64,000 bases of DNA, taken from contig NZ_AP027370.1 in the NCBI RefSeq assembly GCF_030296055.1, positions 682,001 through 746,000 on the forward strand, in the 5' to 3' direction. The notes under the pieces are model-generated. The model did no database searches. It was not told the DNA's origin and saw only the letters and a list, made by a program, of their open reading frames with translations. This document shows, piece after piece, positions 13,143 to 26,238 of the stretch (positions are counted from its first letter, which is position 1; every line of letters begins with the position of its first letter). Source of the stretch: Hydrogenimonas cancrithermarum (GTDB lineage: Bacteria > Campylobacterota > Campylobacteria > Campylobacterales > Hydrogenimonadaceae). A program made the position numbers and the translations under genes.

Positions 13143-13219
13143 GGCTGGGTAGCTCAGCTGGCTAGAGCGCTGGTCTCATAAGCCGGAGGTCGGGAGTTCA
13201 AGTCTCCCCCCCGCCACCA
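13143..13219 (+). tRNA. tRNA-Met (CAT anticodon, elongator type)
   Basis: A full cloverleaf is visible: acceptor GGCTGGG, D arm GCTC...GAGC, anticodon stem CTGGT/GCCGG with loop CTCATAA, T arm GGGAG-TTCAAGT-CTCCC, acceptor CCCCGCC, discriminator A and encoded CCA. The anticodon stem lacks the three G-C pairs of an initiator. tRNA-Ile2 (lysidine-modified CAT) is not fully excluded. The acceptor has one T4:C69 mismatch. The 3' part is the attachment site of the integrated element. Confidence 0.93.
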
Positions 13220-20183: not shown

Positions 20184-20810
20184 CTACAAGGAGGCTAGTA
20201 CTGATCTATATTGCGGTATGAGTTGAAGATATTTTTCAGGTTTTATCCATTCAGAAACGAAGCTGATATCGGACTTTATGGTTTTCTTACTGGACCTCGT
20301 TGGATCCAAACTATAAACTGTTTGGCCCATAATCTTGATAGCATCATAATGTTTGAAAGTAGTACCATCCATCAAACGCTGTAGTTTTCCTCCTCTACTT
20401 TCAATTAGCTGGTTAATTCGTCTATATGCCTCCAATTCATTTTCCTTTCTAAAGAAGGGTTTTTTAGAATTTGGGTGCACCAAAAACTTATCACCACGAT
20501 ATTCATTGATTTTTTCCAATGTATTGGGATCTTCTACTGTCCCTTCTCCATATGGGGAGAAGGGGTGATGCACAATATGCGTCAGATGTTCATAATCCAG
20601 ATACAGTTCTCGTAGACTTAGAATCTCTATTTCTTGACCATCTCTAAAATCAATTGATTTTGAATAGATCCCATAGGATGAAAGTTCCTCTGCAATACTT
20701 TGGTCTAGAGATAACCCTAACAACTCAATAACTCTGGGATTTCTGATTGCAAATTCGTAGGCAAGTTGATTGAAGTCATTTGGAGTATATTCAGATTTTT
20801 TACTTGCCAT
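20184..20810 (-). CDS. Hypothetical island protein
   Basis: 208 aa from ATG 20810, where GGGAGAG lies upstream; an alternative start is 20837. The gene overlaps the integrase 3' end by 11 bases, so it is co-translated with it. The sequence is mixed helix/strand with no signal peptide. YLDYEHLTHIVHHPFSPYGEG and RINQLIESRGGKLQRLMDG are the most patterned parts. I do not recognise a family. The tight overlap with the integrase suggests a role in element maintenance. Confidence 0.6.
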   Translation of the reverse strand: MASKKSEYTPNDFNQLAYEFAIRNPRVIELLGLSLDQSIAEELSSYGIYSKSIDFRDGQEIEILSLRELYLDYEHLTHIVHHPFSPYGEGTVEDPNTLEKINEYRGDKFLVHPNSKKPFFRKENELEAYRRINQLIESRGGKLQRLMDGTTFKHYDAIKIMGQTVYSLDPTRSSKKTIKSDISFVSEWIKPEKYLQLIPQYRSVLASL

Positions 20811-21930
20811 CTTCGTCTCTCCCGGTAATTTTTCCAATCATCTCATTGGCCACATGAGACGCTTTCGTATGATTGGCCGACAGATAGAAGTTATTGACCG
20901 TATCAAGGTTTGTATGCCCAAGGGATGCGCTGAGGATCGTTGTCGCCGTTCCAGCCTCTCCCATAGCTGAGACAAGAATATGCCTGAAATAGTGCATCGT
21001 AAGTTCTGGAATTTCTGCCAGCTGTTTGATCTTCGCCAACTGTTTTTTAGGTGGATAGAGCTCCTTGCCTGTGACTGGGGACTTGAAGATAATTCCGTCT
21101 CTGTTACCGTCAAACTGTGAAAGGGCTTCAGCGATCGGAGTTGGCAGCTCATACGTCTGGTTCCGCTTGATCTTATTATTTTTAGCCCGAATAGTATAAG
21201 TTCGGTTTAGAAAATTGACATCTTCCCATCGGAGCGTTCGTATTTCATTCCATCGCCTGCCGTACAATGCAAACAGAAACAAAGCCCTATAAAAGGGATC
21301 GCTGTCGTATGTGTTCATAATGGTCTGATAAAGCATGGAGAGCTTGGTTGTGGCGTCTTCCACTATCTTTTTCTGTCGATTTTGTTTGGGTGCTTTGATG
21401 TTTGGAATGTCGTCGATAACTTTGTTATCGTGGGCGTATTGCATGATGGGTTTGAGAATTTGAAGCAATACTTTCCTGATTGTTCTCGGGCTGCACCCAT
21501 TGGCCGATTGTTTTGAGAGGCCTTTGGTTTCCATACTGCGGCGCAGGGCATCGAAATCGACCTGGCGGATATCTTTCAGACGTTTTTTGCCAATACCATC
21601 CTTGCAGTAGAGGTTATAGACGTATCGACGCTCTTCGGTCCACTTGGAAGCTTCGCAGGCTTGATTGAAGTAGATATCTGCCACATCGTTCAGCCTGCTG
21701 TTCTCGTTAAAATTGACACTGGCATTGGAAGCTTTTTCTTTCTGGGTTATGAACTCTGTCTTTGCCCTTGATGTTCTGGTTCGTTTATCCCACTCTTTGT
21801 TGGTATAGTCGATGATCCCACGTTTTGATTTTCCGTTAACCTTGAAACGGTATAAAAATCGTTTATACGATGCATCGGCCTTTAACCCTGGTTCGATCGT
21901 ATTGACGAACTCTTTGGTATCTATGGCCAT
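20800..21930 (-). CDS. Tyrosine recombinase integrase of the element
   Basis: 376 aa. There is an N-terminal arm-binding-like region, a SAM-like core-binding domain (residues about 70-165), and a catalytic domain with Arg in YGRRWNEIRTLRWEDV, His-Arg in MHYFRHILVSAMGEA, His in LGHTNLDTVNNFY and nucleophile Tyr in the last motif. An AGGAGC site precedes ATG 21930. It lies 146 bases from attR, the usual location, and catalyses integration at the tRNA-Met 3' end. The GGTGACAC repeats lie directly in front of it and could also autoregulate it. Confidence 0.93.
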   Translation of the reverse strand: MAIDTKEFVNTIEPGLKADASYKRFLYRFKVNGKSKRGIIDYTNKEWDKRTRTSRAKTEFITQKEKASNASVNFNENSRLNDVADIYFNQACEASKWTEERRYVYNLYCKDGIGKKRLKDIRQVDFDALRRSMETKGLSKQSANGCSPRTIRKVLLQILKPIMQYAHDNKVIDDIPNIKAPKQNRQKKIVEDATTKLSMLYQTIMNTYDSDPFYRALFLFALYGRRWNEIRTLRWEDVNFLNRTYTIRAKNNKIKRNQTYELPTPIAEALSQFDGNRDGIIFKSPVTGKELYPPKKQLAKIKQLAEIPELTMHYFRHILVSAMGEAGTATTILSASLGHTNLDTVNNFYLSANHTKASHVANEMIGKITGRDEDGK

Positions 21931-22076: not shown

Positions 22077-22126
22077 TGGTCTCATAAGCCGGAGGTCGGG
22101 AGTTCAAGTCTCCCCCCCGCCACCAT
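22077..22126 (+). repeat. attR: 50-bp direct repeat, orphan tRNA-Met 3' end
   Basis: Exact copy of 13171-13220. It has the anticodon loop, T arm and CCA end but no 5' half, so it is not a second tRNA gene. The sequence after it resumes chromosome-like composition. Confidence 0.93.
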
Positions 22127-22263: not shown

Positions 22264-23370
22264 CTATCGCAGTAGATGTTTTTTACCATGATAGGAAAAA
22301 TATTTTATCAAAGCGAAAGGGTATTGCACTCTCGATTGCAAGCCGTAAAATTGCTGAAGTGCACTGTAAGAGTAAATCTCTTTGAAATCTGTATACGCCG
22401 TATAGAGTTTATGGATTTTTGTCTCCGGGATCAATGTGGACTCCCATAAACATTTTTTGTAAAAGAGCCAACCTCTCAACGCGTTCGTTGGAATGGGAGT
22501 TTCAAGCATAAAAAGTTTTTCAGCCAAATAGAGGAAATCTTCGAGAATCTTTTCATGGTGATATTTTTCGGCCAGGCTGTAGAGTAGGTTCCAGTCGATT
22601 TCCTCCCCGTAGGAAGAGGCCAAAACGGAAAAGTCGTAGACGTTTTTCAAGGCGAGTTTCCAACGCTGATGACTCTTGTCGACAACTGCCGAATGGAGGA
22701 AAGTGTGATACAGATGCCATGTCGGCTTGAGTACGTTCGAATCCTTCAAAAGTCGGTTTCGGCTCCTTTGCGACGTCACTTCGTCATAAGGAATATACTC
22801 GATTTTTTGATCGAATATAACTCGAAAATGAGGTTCGACTGCAGCGGGAAACCCCTTTTTGTTGATACGAGGTGTGTGATGATGCCATCGACCCAGATCA
22901 CGGCCGAATTCGATGTATCCCCTCTTCTTCAACAGCGCCAAGCCCTCCTGGAACACTTCCGGATGCATCATGATATCGATATCGGTCATCGTCCGAATAC
23001 CGGGGGCGGGATAGAGTTTTTCGCTGATGACGGCTGCACCCTTCAGCAATAACGGTTTGATGCCTGCTGGGGCAAGAATTTTCTGGATATCCTCCAACTG
23101 GCCGAGTATCCCCTCGTTACGTTCTGCGTTGTTTCTGTAAACCTCTTTCAAAAAACCTTCGAGCAGCGGGTCGTCGATGAGATCGAACAATTTTTTAGAC
23201 TCCAATGCATGATAGAGGGCTGGAGTCAAAAAGTTACCGTTGGCGACACCTACCAGCTTGACCCAGTCTATATCCCCTTCGGATATCTCTTTTTCGAATT
23301 TCTCTTTCTCGGCGTCAGATCCGAGAGAAAGAAGCTTGCACAGCTGTATGATCTCCTTGCGATTATCCAC
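22264..23370 (-). CDS. Nucleotidyltransferase-fold family protein (NTP_transf_5)
   Basis: 368 aa. The core nucleotidyltransferase motif is PLLLKGAAVISEKLYP then GIRTMTDIDIMM, with the D-x-D pair and the preceding KG typical of NTP_transf_5. This family often stands next to HprK-like kinases and PqqD proteins. The rest is helical with WHLYHTFLHSAVVDKSHQRW. It presumably transfers a nucleotidyl group to a small molecule or peptide; the substrate is unknown. Its ATG lies within the end of the kinase gene (8-base overlap), so the two are translationally coupled. No terminator is evident before attR. Confidence 0.75.
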   Translation of the reverse strand: MDNRKEIIQLCKLLSLGSDAEKEKFEKEISEGDIDWVKLVGVANGNFLTPALYHALESKKLFDLIDDPLLEGFLKEVYRNNAERNEGILGQLEDIQKILAPAGIKPLLLKGAAVISEKLYPAPGIRTMTDIDIMMHPEVFQEGLALLKKRGYIEFGRDLGRWHHHTPRINKKGFPAAVEPHFRVIFDQKIEYIPYDEVTSQRSRNRLLKDSNVLKPTWHLYHTFLHSAVVDKSHQRWKLALKNVYDFSVLASSYGEEIDWNLLYSLAEKYHHEKILEDFLYLAEKLFMLETPIPTNALRGWLFYKKCLWESTLIPETKIHKLYTAYTDFKEIYSYSALQQFYGLQSRVQYPFALIKYFSYHGKKHLLR

Positions 23371-24613
23371 TGCACAGATCCTTTATTCTTCCCACAGCCT
23401 CTTCTAAAGAACCATAGCTCAGGCTGTATGCGGGGCGGGAAAGCAGATGGGACAATATCGACTCGAAATTTTCTTCGCTCAACGGTTTTTCCAGTTGATA
23501 CCCGGCATCTTTAATACGTTTCAGCGTCTCACAAGAACTCAGACGTTCGAGTTTACATTCCGAATTTTTTTCGTATTTGGGAAAAATGACCATCGACACG
23601 GTATCGTTTTCCTTCGCCAGATTCTCCGGCGGCAGAAACTTCACCTTCTGCCCATCGAAGCGCAGAAATGCCTGCTGTTTTTCCAATTTCGGAAACCGTT
23701 CATTCAATACGCTCCAACTCCCCTCTTTGATATTCATACAAAAAGGGATGGGTTTCAACTTTCCATCATATCCCAGCAGGGCTATTTCATCGGAATAGAG
23801 ATCGAACCCTTCACTGACGAGTGCGGCCGTCAAGGTTGTCTTTCCCGATCCACTGAGAGCAGGAAAGACGAGCGAGTGACGCCCATATTTGACGGCACCT
23901 GCATGCATCGCCATGAGATAAGGTTTCGACTGGTAGTATGCGATAATCATGTTTTCTTGCAAAAGCAATGGCAAAGACTCTTCACGGACCGGCGCGGCGA
24001 TTCGCTCGCCATTGAACAGAATCTGCCAATAATTCCCTTCGCTCATCTTGATGAAATCGATATTGATAGCTTTGTCGGTTCGGGAGTGGCGAGACAAATG
24101 CTCGACCAATGGATAGATTTTTCGCTTCAAGGATTCTTTTGGGAACTCGATGAAGAATGTCAAAGGAACGGTGGAAAATTTTTCTCTCTTTTTTTCATCA
24201 TCTTTATAGATGCCTATGTTTAGTGGGGGTTCATAAACTTCTTTTCCCAACTCTTCGTTGCAAAGAAGAAATTTCGAAAAAGAGGTCAAAATGGCTTTCG
24301 GAACCGTCGGAATTTTTGAATAGATCTCATCGACGGAATTCTCTTTGAGAAGCTCGTCTATTTGCAGGAGCAAAGCGGCCGATTCGGATTCAAATCCGTA
24401 TACACGGCCACTTTTTTTATGGTAGAGTATCAGCGACTCGTTATCCAAATATCCACTCAAACATTCCGTATTGAGAGGACACTTTAAAAACTGCTTCAAC
24501 TCTTTGTAATCTGTCAGATTCCACTGCTTATCAAAGCAGATTTCTAAACCAGTCGTAAAGCGGGTTGCTAGGAGTGACTGTATAGTGGTCGTTCGCTCCA
24601 GGCCCTTCCACAT
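23363..24613 (-). CDS. PqqD-like domain fused to HprK-related kinase
   Basis: 416 aa if started at ATG 24613, which overlaps the upstream small gene by 83 bases. A TTG at 24499 (378 aa) would remove the overlap; neither has a strong ribosome site. Residues about 45-120 look like a PqqD peptide-chaperone domain (YLDNESLILYHKKSGRVYGF ... AALLLQIDELL). The second half is HprK-like: Walker A PALSGSGKTTLTAAL after LMAMHAGAV, then LYSDEIALLGYDG. It lacks the full HPr kinase N-domain. A PqqD part next to a small leader-bearing protein suggests that the kinase recognises that protein as substrate; this is inference. Confidence 0.78.
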   Translation of the reverse strand: MWKGLERTTTIQSLLATRFTTGLEICFDKQWNLTDYKELKQFLKCPLNTECLSGYLDNESLILYHKKSGRVYGFESESAALLLQIDELLKENSVDEIYSKIPTVPKAILTSFSKFLLCNEELGKEVYEPPLNIGIYKDDEKKREKFSTVPLTFFIEFPKESLKRKIYPLVEHLSRHSRTDKAINIDFIKMSEGNYWQILFNGERIAAPVREESLPLLLQENMIIAYYQSKPYLMAMHAGAVKYGRHSLVFPALSGSGKTTLTAALVSEGFDLYSDEIALLGYDGKLKPIPFCMNIKEGSWSVLNERFPKLEKQQAFLRFDGQKVKFLPPENLAKENDTVSMVIFPKYEKNSECKLERLSSCETLKRIKDAGYQLEKPLSEENFESILSHLLSRPAYSLSYGSLEEAVGRIKDLCSG

Positions 24614-24839
24614 AGATATTCTGGTCGTCTTTCAACGTATAGGTAATAGTATGGTTGTTGTGCCAAGTACATGTACCTGTTGATGACGCCTGCGCTTTCG
24701 AAGCACCTGCACCCAACAGCAGATACATCCCCAACGGGGCTGTTGCGGCATATTTGCCGAACTTTTTCATAAATTCGCGTTTCGCTTCGTCTACGTCCAC
24801 CTCTTCGCATGTTGCAGAGGTTTCAACTTTTTCCGTCAT
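24531..24839 (-). CDS. Small protein with Tat-like leader, putative substrate of the adjacent kinase
   Basis: 102 aa. It opens with an acidic segment with Cys (TSATCEEVDVDE), then AKREFMKKFGKYAATAP, a KR variant of the Tat motif (RRxFLK), a hydrophobic run (LGMYLLLGAGASKAQA) and an AQA-SS cleavage-like site. The remaining 50 residues are short, Asn/Thr/Asp-rich with CTWHNNHTITYTL and a C-terminal DWFRNLL. There is a good ribosome site (AGGATG with spacing). It lies directly upstream of the PqqD-HprK and nucleotidyltransferase genes and shares their transcript. Function unknown; a modified exported peptide or small structural protein is plausible. Confidence 0.65.
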   Translation of the reverse strand: MTEKVETSATCEEVDVDEAKREFMKKFGKYAATAPLGMYLLLGAGASKAQASSTGTCTWHNNHTITYTLKDDQNIYVEGPGANDHYTVTPSNPLYDWFRNLL

Positions 24840-24996: not shown

Positions 24997-26238
24997 TCAA
25001 TATCGGACAAAGTCCCCCATCGGCACATACGTTCCCGGCAATTGCAATGTTCGTGAAACCCAAAGATAATCGAGGTCGATTTCATAAAATTTCGCGTCAC
25101 AGTTGGCGACACTGTAAAAATAGCGGCCCGTTTCATCGAAACTGCACGTGTGTGCCTGGGCATTTTTCCCTGCATTTCGCTCTTCTGCCGTCAAAGGCAT
25201 CGCGACATCGATGTTTTTGACAACGACGGGGCTTTGCGGGTTGGAGACGTCGACGACGGTGACGTAGGTCGCTTTATGATTGGTGACGATGGCCATGCGC
25301 TTTCGAATGGAAAAAGTGATGTGCCCGGCACCTTCTCCCGCCTGAAAAGTCGAAACCTGCTTCATGCTCTCCTTGTCGACGACATAGACCTTCCCGCTAT
25401 AGGTAGGGAAAAAGATATACTTGTCACCATAAAATCTCGCGTGATGCGCTCCACCATCTTCATGGGCCGCGTGAAATATCTCTTCGACATTTATAACATT
25501 GTTTCCGTCGACAGTGAGTTTCATGATACCGGCGGCCGGAATTGTAGCGTCGTTGGGATCTGCCGGGCCTTCGAGGACGACATAGTATGTTCCATTTCCG
25601 GATGCGTCGACATCCACCGGCCTGTACAACACATGATGTGCAGTCGTCTCCGTTTGAATTTCATAAAGAGGCACTTCGTTCTCTTTGTCATAGAGAGAGA
25701 TTTTTCTGTTTACACGATCCAATAGTAAAAAGCGTTTCCCGTCCGCCAGCCAAAACGGGTGTCCCGTATTGTTTCCTCCTCCGAAGTAGTGGGCCGTATC
25801 GACGTTTTGACCGGTTTCATTTCCGAAGTAACGTTTCACCCTATGGTCGGTTTTGCCTATCGTAACCGCCATCGGTTCGGTTTTGCCGGAAACGAGCACC
25901 AGATCTATATTCGGAAGGGTCGCTGTCGAACGGGGATGAAATTTCAAGGGAATCACTTTTACCACGCGGTCTCGCCTGAAATCGACCACGGCGATCGAAT
26001 CACTCTTTCGGGTAAGGGCGAACGCTTCGCGGTCGGAATCGCACTCTACTCCATATGGCCCGTCTGCAGGCGCAACGTCCATCACGGACTCGAGTTTCAT
26101 ACTTTTCGTATCTATGTCGAAAACTTTCGTAGATTCATAATCTCCATACAATGCATGCAGTGTAGGACCTTCATCGTTACATCCACTCAGCAATACCATA
26201 GCCAGCATCATCGTGCCAAACGAAGTGAGATATTTCAT
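24997..26238 (-). CDS. Beta-propeller lipoprotein
   Basis: 413 aa with a lipoprotein signal (MLAMVLLSGC, Cys at 20). The remainder is a series of about seven four-strand blades in which a strand ends in a D-x or V-V-D turn, for example SIAVVDFRRDRVVKVIPL, VYVVDKESMKQVSTF and YVTVVDVSNPQSPVVV. That is the YVTN/WD-like propeller layout used by periplasmic and surface proteins. Two Cys in the last blade region (HTCSFDE, VANCDAK) and many His could bind metal. It lies 157 bases upstream of the small-protein operon in the same direction; a functional link is possible but not shown. Confidence 0.7.
   Translation of the reverse strand: MKYLTSFGTMMLAMVLLSGCNDEGPTLHALYGDYESTKVFDIDTKSMKLESVMDVAPADGPYGVECDSDREAFALTRKSDSIAVVDFRRDRVVKVIPLKFHPRSTATLPNIDLVLVSGKTEPMAVTIGKTDHRVKRYFGNETGQNVDTAHYFGGGNNTGHPFWLADGKRFLLLDRVNRKISLYDKENEVPLYEIQTETTAHHVLYRPVDVDASGNGTYYVVLEGPADPNDATIPAAGIMKLTVDGNNVINVEEIFHAAHEDGGAHHARFYGDKYIFFPTYSGKVYVVDKESMKQVSTFQAGEGAGHITFSIRKRMAIVTNHKATYVTVVDVSNPQSPVVVKNIDVAMPLTAEERNAGKNAQAHTCSFDETGRYFYSVANCDAKFYEIDLDYLWVSRTLQLPGTYVPMGDFVRY

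Follow-up and report, generated by a model that had tools for sequence, protein, structure and literature searches.

What do an HprK-related kinase, a PqqD-like domain and a nucleotidyltransferase act on when they are encoded side by side? NCBI curators have named this set, the literature searched gives no defined substrate for it, and no papers were retrieved on the three-gene set, on HprK-related kinase or on HPr-rel-A. The window analyzed here (the whole stretch of 64,000 nucleotides from Hydrogenimonas cancrithermarum) contains such a set together with a small gene, and a first-pass annotation had proposed the leader-bearing product of that gene as the candidate for a modified, exported substrate. 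We came to the view, held with slightly better than even confidence, that this cassette is a RiPP-like, leader-directed modification-and-export system in which the small protein would be the precursor.

The three ORFs are present where that annotation had placed them, all on the minus strand. They encode a protein of 102 aa (24531–24839), the kinase (23363–24499) and the nucleotidyltransferase (22264–23370), which starts at a GTG and shares its first 8 bases with the end of the kinase gene. On this strand the genes are arranged in the order obgE, proB, a beta-propeller lipoprotein gene (24997–26238), the three cassette genes and then an integrative element. One start had to be corrected. With the kinase start listed originally (24613), the kinase gene and the small gene would share 83 bases, but residues 1–35 of this long ORF are unconserved in the alignment and disordered in the AlphaFold model, and an equivalent TTG serves as start codon in most close orthologs. 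The long ORF was therefore rejected, and the kinase, with 378 codons, probably starts at TTG 24499, 31 bases past the stop of the small gene and hence without overlap. The small gene (ATG 24839) has AAGGA before its start and no well-placed ribosome site was found for the kinase TTG; judged from these contexts, the difference would fit a higher output of precursor than of enzyme. A promoter search scored against shuffled sequence gave no candidate that stood out.

The gene for the beta-propeller lipoprotein is present in 8 of the 11 kinase-positive Hydrogenimonas genomes versus 1 of the 7 kinase-negative ones, and the lipoprotein possibly acts together with the exported product. In the kinase-negative genome that has it (G014), a transposase-like gene adjoins the lipoprotein gene. 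At the other end of the cassette we observed an exact 32-base direct repeat (13188–13219 and 22094–22125) that flanks an integrase gene (20800–21930); one copy forms the 3' end of a gene for tRNA-Met, and the second is located just downstream of the cassette. This repeat bounds an integrative element of ~8.9 kb, which abuts the cassette and leaves the cassette outside.

The first-pass annotation had described the kinase as a PqqD-like domain fused to an HprK-type kinase. The kinase half of this description was borne out. The protein matches TIGR04352 (HprK_rel_A) with an E-value of 6e-28 and 97.8 bits, below the curated cut-off of 200, and it is thus a homolog of HprK-related kinase A and not a member by cut-off. 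The AlphaFold model (mean pLDDT 87) matched PEPCK and HprK structures in Foldseek searches. Both the fold and the P-loop (PALSGSGKTT, 23834–23863) are intact, and P-loop residues S256, G257, K258 and T260 as well as D275/E276 further downstream are invariant in the kinase alignment. The assignment of the N-terminal domain (24266–24490) is weaker by sequence. Its best match among 18,950 NCBIfam models is TIGR04353, with an E-value of 0.04 (0.041) and 14.8 bits against a cut-off of 35; no match to PF05402 or any other Pfam family was obtained, and comparing its profile with those of other PqqD domains gave no useful signal (13% probability). The predicted structure consists of four strands (residues 42–45, 52–56, 60–65 and 71–75) followed by three helices (76–88, 94–100 and 106–116), an order that fits the PqqD/RRE fold. 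Moreover, a kinase homolog of Methylobacterium (L061) contains a clear PF05402 domain (4.7e-9). We therefore regard the fused domain as probably PqqD-like, based on its fold order and its homology to L061.

The identification of the downstream gene product as an NTP_transf_5 protein was confirmed by its match to PF14907 (133.3 bits against a cut-off of 31.2; E-value 1.4e-38). The catalytic motif R-x-x-x-D-x-D (R126, D130 and D132; 22975–22995) and K110 show no variation among 15 sequences that represent two phyla. The structure was predicted from an alignment of Hydrogenimonas sequences only, and its neighbors of the NTase fold in the PDB include small-molecule adenylyltransferases and FKRP.

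The 102-aa protein is composed of a KRxFMKK...AQA leader and a variable mature part of 51 aa. The conserved leader, VDEAKREFMKKFGKYAATAPLGMYLLLGAGASKAQA (24687–24794), ends in a predicted cleavage site after AQA. The KR motif is found in the window protein and in most Hydrogenimonas leaders, and relatives have RR; the window leader did not match the Pfam TAT_signal family, and the genome encodes TatC. In 16 aligned Campylobacterota sequences, D17, R21, F23, K26, G28, G37, L41 and S47 are invariant. The annotation had asked whether the small ORF is conserved; orthologs are present in 11 of the 18 genus genomes, and it is the leader that is kept and not the body. Mean pairwise identity between orthologs is ~82% for the leader, 49% for the kinase and 37% for the mature part, the latter being barely above the 28% obtained for shuffled cores. 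A kept leader ahead of a body that is not kept is the pattern expected of a precursor recognized by an enzyme, and the cassette has the gene-level hallmark of a RiPP, a short precursor with a conserved leader and a variable core that is encoded beside modifying enzymes.

The mature part (24534–24686 in the window) is hypervariable. Its length in relatives ranges from 18 to 120 aa, and among the bodies are GHHGHHGHHGHQGP, GRPGRPCRPRP and domains of 110–120 aa that look folded. Beyond the Ser/Thr at the junction they have no obvious site in common. Ser directly follows AQA in all bodies of the main Hydrogenimonas group, many relatives start with S-[GT]-S-C, and this Ser is a candidate for the modified residue. 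Neither the window protein nor its relatives matched a Pfam or NCBIfam family above cut-off, and DUF7601 was rejected as the identity of the window protein, its 19.1 bits falling short of the cut-off of 27. Eight of the 16 Campylobacterota precursors (L019–L027 and the window, 24531–24839) have a C-terminal Pro.

Such a diversity of bodies raises an alternative, which we consider improbable though worth weighing, namely that the leader serves as an N-terminal tag for sorting instead of as a RiPP leader, and that a class of exported proteins with nothing else in common, whose bodies vary in function, is modified or escorted by the cassette at the junction or close to it. It would suit the occurrence of one leader ahead of anything from His/Gly repeats of 18 aa, the shortest bodies, to sequences that look like domains, as well as the presence of several copies per genome, the orphan copies and the junction Ser shared by the whole main group. 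However, most cores are very short, of low complexity and peptide-like rather than enzyme-like. This alternative differs from the precursor reading mainly in what gets modified.

If the small protein is indeed the precursor, it should accompany the kinase, and the first-pass annotation had posed this as a question. Profile searches, using a leader profile of 42 positions, showed that the kinase-positive and the leader-positive genomes are identical sets, 11 of the 18 Hydrogenimonas genomes in each case. The chance of obtaining identical sets is 1 in 31,824 if genomes are independent, but the genomes of a genus share ancestry and the true weight is smaller. Among 298 Campylobacterota genomes, the leader profile detected only the kinase-positive G000, G002 and G007, plus one marginal match elsewhere (E-value 0.006). 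The leader is thus far beyond what chance would produce. The leader gene is located directly upstream of the kinase gene in 10 of the 11 genus genomes, and a leader protein is encoded within ~5 kb at every Hydrogenimonas kinase locus examined. In the eleventh genome, G016, three leader genes are located 3–5 kb upstream; these are in tandem (L026, 13234–15127), and their bodies are 112–120 aa long, with two of them alike. Leader and kinase are also paired on two other Campylobacterota contigs (L017 and L018), and G003 encodes an additional orphan leader protein away from the kinase.

A second architecture was found in other Campylobacterota. There, HprK-like kinases occur without the nucleotidyltransferase, most are preceded by mini-proteins with SRRSFLKKAAYxAPxLIxLGQLAKP leaders, and some loci encode a separate PqqD downstream. 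Mini-proteins with RR leaders and GPSGPPxxGW-like tails were seen beside HprK-like kinases without NTP_transf_5 at L036, L038–L040, L042, L046, L048 and L104. The SRRSFLKK-type leader, which makes up a third leader subfamily, is present in 8 of the 298 genomes of the phylum, and all 8 have an HprK-like kinase. This kinase had already been flagged in 7 of them; in G265, an unflagged kinase missed by the curated model directly adjoins the leader gene. The leader gene and the kinase gene of G165 lie on separate contigs, as do those of G021. The leaders are Tat-like in all three subfamilies.

Kinase homologs are also encoded on alphaproteobacterial and Vibrio plasmids, and no kinase relative was found in viral contigs. 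In this convenience sample, 11 non-lasso plasmid loci contain the kinase and the nucleotidyltransferase together, and a protein of the leader family was detected at 9 of the 11 by leave-one-out leader profiles, in which the Sinorhizobium/Ensifer leaders were held out together for three loci. The nine loci are from Methylobacterium (a weak match, E-value 0.005), Sinorhizobium chiapasense, Rhizobium sullae, Leisingera, Parasedimentitalea, Ensifer canadensis, Novosphingobium, Ensifer adhaerens and S. meliloti Ak57. At the other two loci (Vibrio and Sphingomonas), divergent proteins that were judged Tat-like by eye are encoded beside the kinase. With these two counted as leader-bearing, loci with both enzymes and no small leader protein, which the first-pass annotation had named as evidence against its proposal, were not seen in this sample. 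A typical leader of the plasmid loci is DRREFLKxCGRFAAVTPPAVTxLLSTSLTSxAIAxSGG; the Hydrogenimonas leader model recognizes alphaproteobacterial leaders at 4e-6, and the reverse search gave 2e-5. No leader protein was found at the kinase loci of Methylosinus (L062) and Halobaculum (L067), and these also lack the nucleotidyltransferase. Sinorhizobium symbiotic plasmids (L073–L076) also encode orphan leader proteins, which have glycine-rich tails and are not close to any kinase gene; orphans such as these and that of G003 are as expected when one enzyme has several substrates.

These surveys bear on a second alternative, in which the small protein is a bystander or the substrate of another enzyme, and the two cassette enzymes act on a different molecule, for example a surface glycan or a small molecule. 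The NTase-fold neighbors named above and the kinase loci without a detectable leader speak for it, but the pairing is repeated in two phyla, in three leader subfamilies and among differing neighbors, and a search with the leader uncovered the unflagged kinase of G265. We consider this alternative quite unlikely. Among candidates for the target of the two enzymes, the small protein is so far the best, a proposal of the first-pass annotation that the pairing and the conserved leader support; judging from the genes, this protein may be phosphorylated or nucleotidylated.

The cassette resembles several known systems. The HPr-rel-A system (TIGR04352 HprK_rel_A, TIGR04353 PqqD_rel_X and a PF14907 nucleotidyltransferase) has the same three activities side by side, and in a Sphingomonas locus (L070) the annotated genes of this set follow the gene order of the cassette. 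In contrast to that system, the kinase and PqqD-like parts are fused in the cassette and score below the curated cut-offs, and a recognizable family of leader proteins is encoded alongside. HPr kinase/phosphorylase (HprK/P) has the P-loop kinase fold and the H, P-loop and D motifs in common with the cassette kinase, but it is distant (10–14% identity in Foldseek alignments), whereas the cassette kinase has a PqqD-like N-terminus and a leader-protein neighbor instead of a sugar-uptake context.

A chemical precedent is provided by the phosphorylated and phosphoglycosylated lasso peptides paeninodin and pseudomycoidin, for which an RRE/PqqD protein, an HPr-kinase homolog and a nucleotidyltransferase act on a short precursor; HPr-kinase homologs phosphorylate lasso precursors, and in pseudomycoidin hexoses are attached to the phosphate by a nucleotidyltransferase (PMC8498205). 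However, the lasso B2 protease and the asparagine-synthetase-like cyclase are absent at the locus, where the neighbors are obgE, proB, the beta-propeller gene and the integrase gene. In addition, lasso kinases phosphorylate a C-terminal Ser, and Ser ends only 1 of the 16 leader precursors, the window protein ending in Leu. Lasso-peptide membership was therefore rejected. HprK-like kinases were also seen in lasso-like clusters of a Campylobacterota genome (G256; L047) and of Butyrivibrio (L078, with two NTP_transf_5 genes). Bufferins and other MNIO-modified RiPPs likewise have a precursor with an export signal in place of a leader, and modification is thought to precede export (PMC12452194). 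These have Sec signals and iron oxidases, whereas the cassette has a Tat-type leader, a kinase and a nucleotidyltransferase. No Tat-type RiPP precursors were described in the literature searched.

The precursor reading starts from gene linkage, co-occurrence, a conserved leader with a variable body, intact catalytic motifs and the presence of TatC, and from these it proposes a docking step, a modification chemistry, an order of steps and export through Tat. The N-terminal leader would be at once the docking site for the PqqD-like kinase domain and a Tat-type signal peptide. While the precursor is docked, still in the cytoplasm, a hydroxyl residue in its mature part would be phosphorylated by the HprK-type domain, the likeliest target being a Ser/Thr just after AQA. 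The NTP_transf_5 enzyme would then add a nucleotidyl or sugar group to the phosphate, as in pseudomycoidin, and the product would leave the cytoplasm through the general Tat machinery, with cleavage behind the AQA site. The proposed chemistry is taken from the paeninodin and pseudomycoidin precedents, and the idea that an export signal can double as leader from that of the bufferins. Counting against this model are the weak sequence match of the PqqD-like domain, the KR instead of RR in a leader that gave no Pfam Tat match, the lack of an obvious common site in the mature parts beyond the junction Ser/Thr, the bodies of 110–120 aa, and the leaderless kinase loci of Methylosinus and Halobaculum, although these two also lack the nucleotidyltransferase. 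PqqD domains bind leader peptides, and Tat systems use signal-binding chaperones. It is very improbable that the PqqD–HprK protein is a Tat proofreading chaperone for which the small protein is a client and which uses ATP to gate export without leaving a covalent mark, because this reading, which the Tat-like leaders of all three subfamilies and the properties of PqqD domains and Tat chaperones would suit, leaves the intact R-x-x-x-D-x-D of the nucleotidyltransferase and the conserved kinase motifs unexplained.

For a set of activities that had been named by curators, the leader provides a concrete candidate family of substrates and a search probe, which has already found a kinase missed by the curated model. 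Tentatively, and at somewhat less than even confidence, we suggest in broader terms that the leader is an interchangeable N-terminal tag on widespread, undescribed exported peptides and proteins; it would be read by a complex of the PqqD-like domain, kinase and nucleotidyltransferase and then by Tat, so that, ahead of its folded export, the cargo would receive a phosphate and a nucleotidyl or sugar group in the cytoplasm. Sec signals in RiPP precursors have been called highly unusual (PMC12452194). If modification does take place before Tat export, Tat-type leaders would be added to the RiPP field.
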